Shown here piece after piece: positions 733 to 5,701 of a stretch of 5,701 bases of DNA. The first letter of the stretch is position 1, and each line of letters starts with the position of its first letter. The stretch covers positions 5,828-11,528 of the forward strand of contig DNHK01000397.1 in assembly GCA_003485905.1 (NCBI GenBank). Reading direction: 5' to 3'. The position numbers and the translations under genes were made by a program. Under the pieces are notes generated by a model that worked only from the letters and a program-made list of their open reading frames with translations, did no database searches and was not told the origin of the DNA. The DNA is from Gammaproteobacteria bacterium (GTDB lineage: Bacteria > Pseudomonadota > Gammaproteobacteria > Arenicellales > Arenicellaceae).

Positions 733-2163
733 TTGGATTACAACCCCAACCCAAGTAGATTAGCATTGAATACATCGAAGAACGATAGCACCCAACAGAC
801 TGTCGAAGACCCCACGGTTGATCAAATTTTCGCTGGAAATTCTTGTGGGCTAAATAGACCAGAAGGCATCTGCTACTCTCCTAGTAATAAATACGCCGCG
901 ATTGCGAACTCTGGTGACGATTCAATTTCGGTCTATATAAATCGGAACAATTTCGAGCCGAGGATTGAAAGTGAACCTTACCTAACTATAAAAAACGCAT
1001 GCCTGCATTATGTCCATGATCTAGACTTTTCTCCGTGTGGCACTATGCTCGCTGCAATCGCAAGAGAAGGTCACTCCTTATCAATATTTCACAAAAGCGA
1101 GCAACAACAACCTCTATTCGATAATAACCAGAAGGTTTTTATTAAGGGTAGTAAAACTAATCTAAGCTATCCAGCCTCAGTAAGTTTTGACCCTCGCGGC
1201 CAGCAGCTTGCCGTCGCCAATCGACAAACTGGTGGAATTTCGATATTTAAAGTTCCTGAATTGGTTTCCGCTAGCGCTCTGAACATAGAACCTGAACAAA
1301 TAATTAGTGAACAGGAGCTTTTACGTTTTGGCATGGCGGCACCCCACGGACTAAGCTTCTCGCCAGATGGACGCTTTCTAGTTGTTCTACACAAACGATA
1401 TTATTTAACAGAGAATGCTCAAGGTAATCATGGAATCTCGGTATTCAAAACCCATCCGAACTCCCATATGGGTATCTACCCAACTCCTATTGTTATGTTT
1501 GAGACAAGTGGTTCCTGTCTGCACTCTATTGGTTTTCATCCTGACAATCAATATTTTGCGACCTCATCAGAGAAAAGTGAAATTGATCTATATCAATGGC
1601 AATCCACTGCTGCGCCAAAAGATATGATCCTCAGGTTACCCAGCATCAGAAGCTTAGGAAATGAAGTAAAAGGCGTCGGCTTTAGCGGAGATGGAACTCA
1701 GTTAGCCGCTTGCACATCCAACGATCAAGTCATTGTCCATTCTGATTGGCTGACAACAAAAAGTTCAAATGAAGGAAACTTAAAGTCTGATATAGATACA
1801 TTTGTTTCAATCAAAACGCCTCCAAATGCTACGCCCAATAAACCAGAATTTCTGGTTTATTATACGATTGGCGGTAATAAGGCGTACGCCGACGCTGCAA
1901 TTCTATCTGCTAAATCACTTAAAAAAACTTCAAGTGTAGGCTTTGATCTACTTGCTTTGTGTGACGAAAAACTCGTTCCTCTGCTCTCAAAAAATGGCTT
2001 TAATTGTAGAGTGTTTCCTAACTACGAATCAGAGCTTGACGTGGCGGCAAGGCGCTTGAAGGTATTAGAAGACAAGACAGTATGGGGGTATGACCAAATT
2101 GTGTACCTTGATGCAGATGTTATTGCAGATGCAGACATCGGCCAATTTTTTCCGAGCAATTGA
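733..2163 (+). CDS. Beta-propeller fused to GT8-like glycosyltransferase, N-terminal part (frame broken inside the glycosyltransferase)
   Basis: Residues 1-340 hold at least six imperfect repeats of the form x-F-S-P-x-G-x-x-L-A...S-I-x-V. They centre on GICYSPSNKYAAIAN (45-59), DLDFSPCGTMLAAIA (96-110), SVSFDPRGQQLAVAN (149-163), GLSFSPDGRFLVVLH (206-220), SIGFHPDNQYFATSS (265-279) and GVGFSGDGTQLAACT (314-328). This is a YVTN/WD40-like beta-propeller with no signal peptide. A linker (340-370) leads into a nucleotide-sugar glycosyltransferase domain starting near EFLVYYTIGGNKAYADAAI (372-390), with the metal/UDP-sugar DxD motif in YLDADV (D460, D462). The frame then hits TGA 2161-2163, only ten codons past the core of the domain. 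The missing half lies in the -1 frame at 2160-2894, so this is the 5' part of one gene of about 720 codons. The start is uncertain: an in-frame stop at 721-723 leaves TTG 733 or TTG 766, neither with a visible Shine-Dalgarno. The repeats suggest a binding scaffold; the acceptor is unknown. Confidence 0.75.
   Translation: MDYNPNPSRLALNTSKNDSTQQTVEDPTVDQIFAGNSCGLNRPEGICYSPSNKYAAIANSGDDSISVYINRNNFEPRIESEPYLTIKNACLHYVHDLDFSPCGTMLAAIAREGHSLSIFHKSEQQQPLFDNNQKVFIKGSKTNLSYPASVSFDPRGQQLAVANRQTGGISIFKVPELVSASALNIEPEQIISEQELLRFGMAAPHGLSFSPDGRFLVVLHKRYYLTENAQGNHGISVFKTHPNSHMGIYPTPIVMFETSGSCLHSIGFHPDNQYFATSSEKSEIDLYQWQSTAAPKDMILRLPSIRSLGNEVKGVGFSGDGTQLAACTSNDQVIVHSDWLTTKSSNEGNLKSDIDTFVSIKTPPNATPNKPEFLVYYTIGGNKAYADAAILSAKSLKKTSSVGFDLLALCDEKLVPLLSKNGFNCRVFPNYESELDVAARRLKVLEDKTVWGYDQIVYLDADVIADADIGQFFPSN
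2146..2151 (+). other. T6 run, probable frameshift site inside the glycosyltransferase domain
   Basis: The upstream frame reads GQ-F-F-PSN-stop through this run. Moving to the -1 frame here gives GQFFSEQLNRDTLYVCKEG, which continues the glycosyltransferase fold smoothly. The downstream frame is closed by TGA at 2109-2111, so the shift must lie in 2112-2160. The upstream frame still looks family-like through DADIGQFF, which places it at or just after the T6 run. The zero-frame context is A TTT TTT C, a poor match to a classical X XXY YYZ slippery heptamer. I see no strong stem-loop or internal Shine-Dalgarno nearby. A one-base loss (mutation or homopolymer sequencing error) is the simplest reading. 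Confidence 0.65.
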
Positions 2164-2894
2164 ATCGTGACACGCTTTACGTTTGCAAAGAGGGTGACAT
2201 AAGTAACTTCAAAAGCCCTTTTTGGGGGATTTATGGCAAGTACTTCGACGATCAACAATTAGCAGCGCTGGAATCAAATAAAATTTATCCATTCAACTCT
2301 GGGTTCTACCTTTTTCGCCCTTCAAAAAGGATGGCGAACGACTTTGATGAGGTGCTACGAATCGCGCTAAATTCACCAGAATCTTCATCCTGGGATCAAG
2401 CTTCCTTTAATCACTACTTCCCCATTCACGGCAAACTAAACCAGCTTATTATAAATAGTACGAACTACGATCTTGCCTATGTAAAACCAGGTGAACCACA
2501 GCGGCAGAACGGGAAGTTCGTACATTTTTGTGGAAAAGGTACAGATATAGAACACAAGCTTTACAAAATGTATCGCTATGTAGAAACTCATTTGGCTGCG
2601 CAGCACGATGAGTTTCGACCCCGTAGATATGAACTAAGTAAAAACGTCAGGATAAACATGCAGTCGAAGAGCCACTTTTTGACAGGCATGCCAGAAGGTC
2701 CTATTCACCTAAACAATTCGGCACGAATTATTATCGAGTTATTAGACGAGGGCTGGACGATCAGTGAAACAGTCGACGAAATAGCAGAACTAATGAATCA
2801 ACCTCATGCACAAATTGCAGGGGAAGTTGATTCCCTTATCCGAACTTTATTGAGTAGAAACGCAATTGAAGAAGTAACAACTCCCAGCTTATAA
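2160..2894 (+). CDS. C-terminal half of the glycosyltransferase plus PqqD-like (RRE) domain, separated by frameshift
   Basis: This open frame overlaps the end of the previous one by four bases and continues the same glycosyltransferase in the -1 frame. It carries the second half of the GT8-like fold: PFNSGFYLF (44-52, the NSG block), WDQASFN (78-84, acceptor/active-site block) and VHFCGKG (121-127, the late histidine-glycine motif that contacts metal and diphosphate). Residues about 156-238 form a PqqD-like domain: YELSKNVRIN, a two-strand start with PEGPIHLN (178-185), then helices SARIIIELLDEGWTISETV (187-205) and AGEVDSLIRTLLSRNAIEEV (220-239). In PqqD and other RiPP recognition elements this winged-helix fold binds the leader of a precursor peptide. 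The TTG at 2160 is only the first in-frame start-like codon and has no Shine-Dalgarno. An independent start is unlikely, because the product would lack the Rossmann half and the DxD motif. Confidence 0.7.
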   Translation: MNRDTLYVCKEGDISNFKSPFWGIYGKYFDDQQLAALESNKIYPFNSGFYLFRPSKRMANDFDEVLRIALNSPESSSWDQASFNHYFPIHGKLNQLIINSTNYDLAYVKPGEPQRQNGKFVHFCGKGTDIEHKLYKMYRYVETHLAAQHDEFRPRRYELSKNVRINMQSKSHFLTGMPEGPIHLNNSARIIIELLDEGWTISETVDEIAELMNQPHAQIAGEVDSLIRTLLSRNAIEEVTTPSL

Positions 2895-3040: not shown

Positions 3041-3466
3041 CTAATTCCATAAGTCCTGATCAAGCATCCACTGTCCATCGACATTGTGCCAGATATGTGT
3101 AAAGTTCCCTGAACCTAAGGTCTCGCCCGAATCTCTTCCGGTAACTTCATAATTACCGCGCACCAACATCATGTCGTACCCCATGATGCTGTCGGTCGCA
3201 TTTAAGGTGGTCAACGGGTTATCAATAGTAAAGTCACCCGCCCAAAACTCTTCTATTGGTTTTCTGCCTATAATCATTGGCGTACCGCGCAGGTAAAGGT
3301 GCGCATTTTCAGTATAAAGTTTACCCAGTCCCTCAGCATCAAATGCGTTGTAGGCTGTTGACCACTTATTAGCTAGTGCTTGAATATCTTCTTGAGCACT
3401 GGCAGAAAAAGTAACAAGGGTAAAGAATGCCAAGGCCAAGGTACATGTAACTTTTTTAAAATTCAT
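3041..3466 (-). CDS. Secreted SnoaL/DUF4440-like (NTF2-fold) protein
   Basis: The protein is 141 residues, starting at ATG 3466 and ending at TAG 3041-3043. Residues 1-24 form a clear Sec signal peptide (positive MNFKK, hydrophobic core, ASA before Q25), so the product is probably periplasmic. The mature part has the NTF2-like pattern of SnoaL/DUF4440 proteins: an opening helix ALANKWSTAYNAFDAEGLGK, the LYTENAHLYLRG strand block, an IGRKPIEEFW helix, and a C-terminal sheet ending HIWHNVDGQWMLDQDLWN. The family includes ketosteroid isomerase-like enzymes and many binding proteins of unknown role, so no reaction can be assigned. A TTG four codons upstream (3476-3478) overlaps the Shine-Dalgarno and is rejected as start. 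It lies 132 bases downstream of glpT on the same strand and converges with the glycosyltransferase gene. Confidence 0.8.
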   Translation of the reverse strand: MNFKKVTCTLALAFFTLVTFSASAQEDIQALANKWSTAYNAFDAEGLGKLYTENAHLYLRGTPMIIGRKPIEEFWAGDFTIDNPLTTLNATDSIMGYDMMLVRGNYEVTGRDSGETLGSGNFTHIWHNVDGQWMLDQDLWN

Positions 3467-3471
3467 TCTGG

Positions 3472-3476
3472 TCTCC
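3472..3476 (-). promoter_or_regulatory. Shine-Dalgarno GGAGA deciding the SnoaL-like start
   Basis: On the minus strand GGAGA lies five bases before ATG 3466. This favours that ATG over the in-frame TTG at 3478, which would sit upstream of or within the ribosome binding site. Confidence 0.7.
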
Positions 3477-3526
3477 AAAAGGTAATCGATGTGAGGTTCT
3501 AGAAAGGTGACGTGCTCTTATGCTGA

Positions 3527-3598: not shown

Positions 3599-4936
3599 TT
3601 ATGTCGGCTTTATTACCTCGGAGCGCCAGGTAAATGAAATTAGGATTATCGCCAATACACAGGCTGCTGAGATCAACACGAAACCGGCATCCCAGCCCGC
3701 CGAATCTACAACCATACCAATTACCACATTGGCTGCCACCGCACCGCCGACGTACCCAAAGAGCCCAGTAAATCCCGCGGCGGTACCTGCGGCTTTCTTC
3801 GGCACAAGATCCAAAGCTTGCACACCTATGAGCATAACGGGTCCGTAGATGAAAAACCCGATACCAATCAGCATCGCAATATCAACATTCGGACGGCCCG
3901 CAGGATTTTGCCAGTAAACCAATACACAGATTAGCGTGAGCAGAAGATAGAGAATTGATACTGGCGCTCGACGCCCATTGAATACTTTGTCGGATAACCA
4001 GCCGCAAATCAAAGTGCCAGGAATTCCGGCGAACTCATAAGATGCGTACGCCCAGCCTGAGTCTGCGAAGGAAAACTGCTTCACTTCGCTCAGGTAAGTT
4101 GGTGTCCAATCAAGCACACCATAGCGAACGAAGTAGACGAAGGCATTTGCCAGCGCGATAGTCCACAGAAGTTTGTTATTGAGCACGTACTCTAAAAAGA
4201 TCGTTTTCGCCGTGAACTCTCGTTCATGGCTTTCGCTGTACTCGAACACTTTTGGATAGTCCTTGCGATGGGCTTCGATTGCCGGCAGGCCTACCGATTG
4301 CGGCGTGTCCCGAACGGATAAGAAAATAAACGCAGCAACTGCCACCGCTAGAAATCCGTGCACATATAGGATTGCGTGCCAATCTGCGAAGGTAGTCATC
4401 GCGAAAATTGCAATCAGGCCGACCATCCCACCGCCTATATTGTGAGCGACGTTCCAGATCGCCATTTTGGTGCCACGCTCATTAGTCGAAAACCAATGAA
4501 CCATAACGCGCCCGGCTGGTGGCCAGCCCATGCCTTGAAACCATCCGTTCGCTAGCAATAGCAAAAACATGATAGCAACGGAGCCTGTAGCAAACGGCAC
4601 CGTGCCCATCATAATCATCGTAGAGGCTGAACAAAGCAATCCAAGAGACATGAAGATGCGCGCGTTACTGCGGTCAGAAACACTCCCCATGATGAATTTG
4701 GATAAACCGTAGGCTATTGACACCCCGGATAAAGCCAAACCCAGGTCGGTTTTCGAATACCCCTGCTCAATCAGATAGGGCATTGCAAGTGAGAAATTTC
4801 TTCTCACCAAGTAGTAGCCAGCGTAGCCGACGAAAATGCCGATAAATACCTGAAGCCGGAGGCGTCGATAAGTTGTGTCGACTTCGCCGTCCGGCAAAGA
4901 GTCACGATGGGCCGCCGGATTAAGAAAACCAATCAA
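3599..4936 (-). CDS. glpT: Glycerol-3-phosphate:phosphate antiporter GlpT (major facilitator family)
   Basis: A 445-residue inner-membrane protein of the organophosphate:phosphate antiporter family; E. coli GlpT is 452 residues. It imports sn-glycerol 3-phosphate in exchange for phosphate. Family signatures visible in order are [14 protein letters not shown] (22-35), GYYLVRRNF (40-48), MGSVSDRSN (83-91), [13 protein letters not shown] (131-143), AHNIGGG (164-170), RDTPQS (209-214), [13 protein letters not shown] (270-282), [15 protein letters not shown], and the C-terminal [14 protein letters not shown]. The substrate-binding arginines R45 and R271 and the central H165 are all kept (E. coli R45, R269, H165). 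The TTG start at 4936 is chosen because the N-terminus [10 protein letters not shown] lines up with E. coli MLSIFKPAPH. No ATG lies between it and the upstream in-frame stop, and the Shine-Dalgarno is weak. The gene is transcribed divergently from the oxidase gene; no glpQ partner is present in the window. Confidence 0.96.
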
Positions 4937-5183: not shown

Positions 5184-5701
5184 TTGGAACTCGATCCGTT
5201 CATTCTTTCGAGAATACAGTTCGCACTCAACATAAGTTTCCACATTCTGTTTCCGACAATAACGATTGGATTGTGCTGGATTTTATTGTTTTTCCGTATG
5301 TGTTTTACCTTTACGCAAGACCAGGAATGGGAATACGCGTATTACTTTTGGATCAAAATATTTGCCCTGACCTTTGCGATTGGCGTGGTTACCGGCATCA
5401 CCATGAGTTTTCAATTTGGTACCAATTGGCCTGGGTTTATGGAAAAAGCCGGCAACGTCGCTGGCCCCCTGTTGGGCTATGAAGTTATGACCGCCTTTTT
5501 TCTGGAAGCGTCTTTTTTAGCTATCATGTTATTCGGCAAGAATAAGGTCTCAAACCGCGTACATTTGTTTTCGACGTTTATGGTTGCTATAGGTACGACC
5601 ATATCTGCGTTCTGGATTATTAGCCTAAATTTCTGGATGCAAACTCCCGTTGGCTACAGCGTACAAGACGGTATAGTTCAGATCGAAAGCTGGCGAGAGA
5701 T
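5184..5701 (+). CDS. cydA: Cytochrome bd quinol oxidase subunit I, CioA-like (5' part, runs off window)
   Basis: The frame is open from TTG 5184 to the window end, giving the first 172 residues of a family of roughly 450-520. Subunit I binds haems b558, b595 and d and oxidises quinol in the inner membrane, reducing oxygen to water. The N-terminus LELDPFILSRIQFALNISFH matches subunit I. H20 corresponds to the haem ligand H19 of E. coli, and E100 and E108 in YEVMTAFFLEAS correspond to the proton-pathway/haem d glutamates E99 and E107. QFGTNW (77-82) and WMQTP (151-155) are further family blocks. Membrane segments are visible near 12-38, 55-78, 95-118 and 127-150. The wording GPLLGYEVMTAFFLEASF is closer to cyanide-insensitive CioA than to E. 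coli CydA, though the diagnostic Q-loop and remaining haem ligands lie outside. The subunit II gene is expected downstream. Confidence 0.93.
   Translation, partial: MELDPFILSRIQFALNISFHILFPTITIGLCWILLFFRMCFTFTQDQEWEYAYYFWIKIFALTFAIGVVTGITMSFQFGTNWPGFMEKAGNVAGPLLGYEVMTAFFLEASFLAIMLFGKNKVSNRVHLFSTFMVAIGTTISAFWIISLNFWMQTPVGYSVQDGIVQIESWRE

Follow-up and report, generated by a model that had tools for sequence, protein, structure and literature searches.

In glycocins, a small bacteriocin precursor is paired with a dedicated glycosyltransferase (GT) and an ATP-binding cassette (ABC) exporter. RiPP recognition elements (RREs), which read the leaders of ribosomally synthesised and post-translationally modified peptides (RiPPs), typically act inside one gene cluster, as set out in the available passages of PMC7470986, and the RREs of lasso peptide systems are reported to read a YxxP leader motif (available passages of PMC12710340). 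Here we describe a gene in which an RRE-like tail is joined to a GT domain and a β-propeller. It lies on a 5,701-nucleotide stretch of a gammaproteobacterial genome assembly (GCA_003485905.1, contig DNHK01000397.1, positions 5,828 to 11,528), the whole of which is hereafter called the window. In its intact form, the gene encodes a WD40 propeller, a GT8 domain and an RRE, and on balance we favour its product being a leader-guided protein glycosyltransferase that acts via leaders of the twin-arginine translocation (Tat) type carrying a WxxP motif.

Two overlapping open reading frames (ORFs) on the plus strand, 733-2163 and 2160-2894, together hold all three modules. ORF 1 provides the 5′ part of the gene (766-2163, +; the frame opens at 733, and the TTG start at 766 comes from comparison with the relatives P0001 and P0002), comprising the propeller and the first part of the GT8-like domain, and ends at a frame break. 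ORF 2 (2160-2894, +) provides the remaining GT8-like domain and the RRE tail. The WD40-type propeller spans 814-1755 (+; P0001 residues ~17-330), as delimited by Pfam, a structural model and WD40 structures. A preliminary description of this DNA had counted at least six repeats; ORF 1 exceeds the Pfam WD40 cut-off (PF00400, 39.5 bits against 27; PF10282, 29.2 bits against 21.7), and a strand count in the P0001 model gives seven blades. The GT8-like domain carries DxD (2110-2118, +), NSG (2295-2303, +) and late histidine (2523-2525, +) motifs, and P0001 and P0002 share both Asp residues as well as the Asn, the Gly and the His. The PqqD-like RRE tail occupies 2673-2870 (+; P0001 residues 637-702), where PF05402, a family profile, a model and fold matches agree; in ORF 2, PF05402 (PqqD) scores 28.4 bits against a cut-off of 23.4.

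The GT8 family itself (PF01501) stays below its cut-off of 24.3 in both window pieces (11.8 and 13.5 bits), because the frame break (2146-2163, +) cuts the domain. It exceeds that cut-off in the intact relatives, P0001 (37.0 bits) and P0002 (30.8 bits). P0001 is a 709-aa protein with 32 member sequences on 7 contigs in the protein database, and its frame is uninterrupted; its printed identity to ORF 1 is 100% over 97% of ORF 1, with single-residue differences visible by eye. P0002 (716 aa, 73% identity) holds the propeller, GT8 and PqqD/RRE in the same order. Since both relatives, one of them near-identical, are intact with this domain order, the frame break is local to the window copy, as a mutation or a sequence error. 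The claim of one three-module product read across a single frameshift is thereby borne out, P0001 reading straight through. The start and length first given for it are revised: P0001 and P0002 both begin at the residue encoded at 766, and a gene of 766-2894 with about 710 residues fits better than one starting at 733 with 720.

The whole-protein model of P0001, built from 7 alignment rows, is confident in the propeller (10-residue block means of 63-94, mostly >75, over residues ~21-330), which matches WD40 structures in the Protein Data Bank (PDB). By sequence, P0001 retrieves only weak propeller matches from the PDB and no GT match. The two best propeller matches among 109 genomes of the order of the closest relative, in G038 and G039, both have a link to RREs. 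The G038 protein (433 aa) unites propeller and RRE in one chain. In G039, the propeller ORF shares 29 bases with the end of a GT2 ORF and runs divergently from an RRE-GT2-GT25 gene and a leader gene. A docking role for the propeller would be consistent with these settings. The same propeller also occurs in P0003 (557 aa, protein database), where it is joined to an HD_4/DUF6817 region at the N-terminus and not to a GT.

As the preliminary description had supposed, the last residues of the product match PqqD/RRE profiles; they also match the fold of leader-bound RREs. When remodelled with 54 alignment rows, the tail reaches a predicted local distance difference test (pLDDT) score of 87.6, with two short strands (a third is not called by DSSP) and three helices; the predicted structure thus has the RRE arrangement of β strands followed by three helices. 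Foldseek places TbiB1 with its leader, PqqD, and TfuB1 with its leader among the top matches of the 76-residue model (template modelling (TM) score by query 0.64-0.75). Searched against the PDB, the 54-row tail profile retrieves TbiB1 (8e-17), PqqD (9e-14) and TfuB1 (8e-13). The NCBIfam PqqD equivalog TIGR03859 scores 27.3 bits, below its cut-off of 46. In a poorly resolved tree of 79 RRE domains (67 columns), there is a weakly supported split (76/77), with 22 of 28 standalone PqqD and 7 N-terminal domains on one side and 44 fused and 6 standalone domains on the other. The window tail sits on a long branch, with only P0002 close.

PqqD is present in 51 of the 109 genomes of the order. Forty-five long PqqD ORFs (>200 aa) were counted among the matches listed, of which 44 were located; with one more from our own profile (L128:9387-11531), 45 were scanned with Pfam. 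Glycan enzymes of unrelated families account for 32 of them (GT2, GT4, GT7C, GT10, GT11, GT25, GT32, GT90, sulfotransferases, polysaccharide pyruvyltransferases, LicD and PIG-L), two with an enzyme match below the Pfam cut-off (L128:12350-13480, GT2-like; L128:8191-9324, PIG-L-like). The other 13 comprise one propeller-RRE protein without a GT (L088), two PqqD-M50-HlyD fusions, one radical S-adenosylmethionine (SAM)-SPASM protein, one transglutaminase, one 2-oxoglutarate (2OG) oxygenase and seven ORFs without another family, including L146 of G036, which is GT-like by eye only. The PqqD domain is C-terminal, central or N-terminal in these ORFs. RRE-tagged glycan enzymes as a kind are thus not rare in this order, and the RRE appears here as an interchangeable tag on many unrelated glycan enzymes.

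Three ORFs combine a PhyH dioxygenase, GT7C and an RRE (L129:368-2572, L136:9884-12151 and L145:9711-11654, all on the minus strand), two of them also with ankyrin repeats, one below cut-off. This composition suggests enzymes that hydroxylate and then glycosylate, for which the lysyl hydroxylase-glycosyltransferases are a known precedent. Three further observations concern the same collection. The radical SAM-SPASM, transglutaminase, M50-HlyD (two) and 2OG oxygenase fusions are encoded at L162:8765-10126 (-), L165:9323-10024 (+), L138:7279-9423 (-), L139:6797-8998 (+) and L147:6248-8002 (+). A run of nucleotidyltransferase-like, PqqD and kinase-like genes is visible by eye in L084. In a listed 304-aa PqqD ORF of G046:C12, outside the 45 scanned, our own profile finds no PqqD.

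A recurring neighbour of the RRE ORFs encodes a Tat-type leader, RR..LK..GGG..W-x-x-P-V-x-x-S-V-x-LPAHAQT, followed by a Ser/Thr-rich protein. Twelve copies, aligned over 56 positions, give RR..LK..LAGGG......W.KPVVDSVILPAHAQTS, in which R, R, W, P, L, P, H and A are invariant; AHA is presumably a site of the signal-peptidase kind. Ten of these 12 proteins were compared with Pfam and NCBIfam; none fell into a dedicated family, and the only matches were weak ones, either to generic Tat signals or due to chance. The RR motif, together with weak Tat-signal profile matches in two or three of the ten, suggests that the family uses the Tat route. Among 49 distinct leader ORFs from the fetched loci, 48 have WxxP and 48 have RR/KR, a conservation that is in part by construction, the ORFs having been picked by profile. 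The mature parts have a median length of 128 aa, and their Ser+Thr content is 22.6% (44 proteins with >=20 aa), compared with 11.7% in 493 background proteins and 10.7% in nine secreted-like ones. A 20-residue window with >=70% Thr/Ser/Pro occurs in 8 of 49 leader proteins compared with 6 of 545. Across the order, leader matches at E<=0.01 occur in 47 of 109 genomes and reach E<=1e-8 in 39 of these; a single genome has at most 21. By eye, the mature parts vary widely, including fasciclin-like examples (L189, L193) and one with a tail-spike-chaperone-like end (L198).

Linkage between leaders and RREs was assessed in 38 loci (L128-L165) chosen by PqqD alone, with the leader expectation taken from genome-wide counts. 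A leader gene is present in 11 of them, against 1.19 expected (Poisson 5e-8). Nine of the 11 contain a glycan-type RRE ORF; in L157 and L161 the RRE ORF has no other family. A conserved neighbour, as the preliminary description proposed to look for, thus lies beside the wider family of RRE-bearing glycan enzymes more often than chance, and the 5.7 kb of the window contain none. In 80 loci around glycerol-3-phosphate transporter (GlpT) genes, there are no leaders and no PqqD at the cut-offs used here; these loci span many lineages, so they do not control for kinship. At the level of genomes, all 39 with strong leader matches fall within the 51 that have PqqD, and the 58 without PqqD include none with strong and eight with weak matches. 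Across the 51, leader and PqqD counts correlate (Spearman 0.61). Leaders occur in 18 of the 21 genomes with long PqqD ORFs among the matches listed; G045, G046 and G056 lack them, and their scanned long ORFs are of the radical SAM-SPASM, transglutaminase and M50-HlyD types, with one unknown.

A sample of 369 genomes drawn from the class provides a less circular check, although it shares at least G002, G017, G033 and G034 with the order set. Leaders at E<=1e-6 occur in six of its genomes, including G017, G033 and G034, and PqqD in 126, including five of those six. Of the three leader genomes new to the order set, two (G247 and G317) have an RRE-GT gene adjoining a leader gene. In G247, a GT2 ORF carries an RRE at its C-terminus (below the Pfam cut-off at 19.3 bits; 7e-9 with our own profile) and lies directly before two leader genes, which are followed by a GT2-GT25 ORF and a standalone PqqD. 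The two tandem leader proteins (L230:3223-3585 and 3803-4150, +) are short and end in near-pure poly-threonine. In G317, an RRE-GT2-GT25 ORF adjoins a leader gene, whose product has a Thr/Ala/Pro stretch; its two remaining leader genes lie on other contigs, where the fetched stretch holds no PqqD.

These results point, most simply, to the following mechanism. In the cytoplasm, the RRE tail would bind the W-x-x-P segment of a Tat-type signal peptide, and the attached GT domain would add sugar to the Thr/Ser-rich mature part before export, with the propeller perhaps helping to dock the acceptor. The Tat system would then export the modified protein, and signal peptidase would cut the leader at the AHA site, so that no dedicated leader protease would be needed. 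A WxxP-reading RRE is proposed because the tails are closest to a lasso RRE in the PDB, lasso RREs read YxxP, and the leaders have a near-invariant WxxP before AHA. The organism of the window may itself have a Thr/Ser-rich, leader-bearing acceptor, as suggested by the leader protein of G036 of its genus. The earlier proposal of leader-guided glycosylation of a peptide or small protein is thus partly supported by the RRE match, but its likely substrate changes to Tat-exported Ser/Thr-rich proteins of the length given above, rather than a short peptide next door, with genes that are mostly scattered.

A broader proposal is plausible, although we hold it tentatively: a general glycosylation system addressed by the signal peptide, in which WxxP serves as the label, to be removed on export once many unrelated RRE-bearing glycan enzymes have together assembled mucin-like glycans on as many as about 20 different Ser/Thr-rich secreted proteins in a genome. 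The window protein would be one such enzyme, alongside GTs of many families, sulfo- and pyruvyltransferases and hydroxylase-GT fusions. The RRE is proposed to target a site within the Tat-type signal of Ser/Thr-rich secreted proteins that form a multi-gene family and in some cases carry tails of almost pure poly-threonine. Were the binding real, it would amount to signal-peptide-addressed, cytoplasmic, mucin-like O-glycosylation in bacteria, would assign a substrate to unassigned RRE-GT fusions and would offer a leader tag for steering a glycosyltransferase of choice to a protein of choice. In the G247 cluster, where a GT2-RRE gene adjoins those for two small leader proteins, the question can be tested directly.

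Several observations weigh against leader-guided glycosylation by the window protein. The GT domain and tail are not confident in the whole-protein model of P0001, the best Foldseek E-value for the tail is 0.024 (none <=0.001), and the window tail alone retrieves no PqqD from the PDB. Ten of the 11 linked loci had contributed seed sequences to the first leader profile, although a second one, built only from 36 leader ORFs that lie away from the RRE loci and had been found with the first, still recovers the same 11 loci and has no match in the window or in L001-L080. The co-occurrence of leaders and PqqD across the 109 genomes (Fisher 2.7e-19) ignores kinship, and 12 of the 51 genomes with PqqD have no leader match. 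G067 (2.3 Mb) has 21 leader matches and only two PqqD matches. In the class sample, G203 has a leader, with a GT2 gene adjoining it, and no PqqD match, and G355 has ten PqqD and no leader at 1e-6. Leader genes mostly lie away from RRE genes, since a PqqD domain is near only one (L207) of 20 leader-centred loci (L196-L215). The window has no leader or precursor gene in its 5.7 kb, and G002, the closest genome compared, yields no leader match at E<=0.01, and its PqqD matches stay below cut-off.

Some of these points would also fit an alternative that we consider unlikely, in which the PqqD-like tails act as winged-helix scaffolds or regulatory domains of ordinary enzymes of capsule or lipopolysaccharide (LPS) synthesis, and the leader proteins are Tat substrates that have no relation to them but are frequent in the lineage. 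Several RRE ORFs do match capsule- or LPS-type families (GT25, GT32/Caps_synth, pyruvyltransferase), one RRE pair (L130) lies within a run of GT genes, 19 of the 20 leader-centred loci are away from RRE genes, and the genome-level co-occurrence is confounded by kinship. Against this alternative stand the enrichment of leaders by PqqD ORFs, the leader-bound RREs as the closest solved relatives of the tails, the adjoining leader and RRE-GT genes of G247 and G317, and the acceptor-like parts rich in Ser/Thr and poly-Thr.

It is rather improbable that the window enzyme is RRE-guided towards some other peptide or protein, with a different leader encoded elsewhere, and that only its relatives use the Tat-type leader. 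This would suit the lack of a leader gene in the window and in G002, the long branch of the window tail and the other RRE systems of the order (radical SAM-SPASM, transglutaminase and M50-HlyD fusions). Against it stands G036, of the same genus, which has one leader protein, with a Ser/Thr/Pro stretch opening its mature part, and two ORFs with PqqD tails, of which one is PhyH-GT7C and the other has no further family; moreover, the best relatives of the propeller in the order sit in leader/RRE settings.

The exact propeller-GT8-RRE fusion is rare, being represented by two protein clusters. When the GT+PqqD part of P0001 was searched in 5.8 billion proteins, with candidates picked by shared words and length, only P0001 and P0002 emerged among 4363 candidates from longer proteins, and a two-row profile of this part had no match at E<=1e-3 among 7129 candidates of ~190-620 aa. 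The full fusion was found in none of the 109 genomes of the order, where only propeller or PqqD pieces occur, in five genomes; in none of the 369 genomes of the class sample, with two weak pieces; and in none of a set of 16 genomes. A scan of genome contigs with P0001 gave 13 stretches that fit a pattern, none of them confirmed, and ORF 2 has no match in phage and plasmid records. That the window copy is a decaying gene, and its architecture a rare dead end without function in this strain, is nevertheless very improbable: the frame break and this scarcity speak for it, but P0001, with its 32 member sequences on 7 contigs, is near-identical and intact, P0002 keeps the GT motif residues and the tail at 73% identity, and the break may stem from an assembly or sequencing error in the window.

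The flanking genes help to place the organism. The window begins with the end of a peptidase/amidohydrolase-like gene (3-482, +), which has no Pfam family over cut-off and is 92% identical in G002; we take it to be AbgB-like. Downstream lie a DUF4440/SnoaL-like small protein with a signal-like N-terminus (3041-3478, -), GlpT (3599-4936, -; 681 bits with NCBIfam TIGR00712, over its cut-off) and the first part of the gene for cytochrome bd subunit I (5184-5701, +). GlpT is 88% identical in an Arenicellaceae metagenome-assembled genome (MAG; L002, genome G002) and 87% in another gammaproteobacterial MAG. Because GlpT and the other flank are this similar in G002, the organism appears to be close to the genus of G002 and G036. 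For the cytochrome bd gene, G001 and G002 offer no match, and G018 has one of 74% identity. An Rfam scan of the window found nothing, and there is no exporter gene among the window genes scanned with Pfam. Two candidate contexts were rejected: a local RiPP cluster, as the window holds no precursor, and lasso peptide biosynthesis, as no peptidase or cyclase is found among the window genes by Pfam or NCBIfam.

In the open-licence literature, supplementary files aside, we found nothing on the leader motif (LPAHAQT), on PqqD in combination with Tat-type leaders or on the RRE-tagged glycan enzymes described here, and no work joining mucin-like O-glycosylation, the Tat signal and a bacterial glycosyltransferase. 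The nearest described systems are the following. Like GT8 glycosyltransferases (PF01501), the intact relatives P0001 and P0002 exceed the family cut-off and have DxD; they differ in having no close relative beyond each other, none in the PDB by sequence, and in the fused propeller and RRE. Like PqqD of pyrroloquinoline quinone (PQQ) synthesis (3g2b, 5sxy), the tail exceeds the PF05402 cut-off and matches in fold, whereas it falls short of the equivalog cut-off and is fused to a propeller and GT.

Predicted fusions of an RRE with a glycosyltransferase are mentioned in the available passages of the RRE-Finder work (PMC7470986), and those of PMC12710340 include predicted RRE fusions of PF00535. 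Compared with these, leaving supplementary figures aside, the present case differs in its GT8 and propeller, in the many GT and other glycan-enzyme families involved and in the proposed leader family. The RREs associated with DUF2063, whose DUF2282 precursors bear an export signal peptide, offer a parallel for the partner: in the available passages of PMC12710340, those signals are of the Sec type, with variable leader regions and no specific motif, whereas here they are Tat-type with a near-invariant WxxP. Closest of all by profile in the PDB are the lasso RREs TbiB1 (5v1u/5v1v) and TfuB1 (6jx3), which have the same fold as the modelled tail. These are discrete proteins that read YxxP in lasso leaders, as far as the available passages of PMC12710340 describe them, whereas the RREs considered here are fused to glycan enzymes and would read WxxP in a Tat-type signal.

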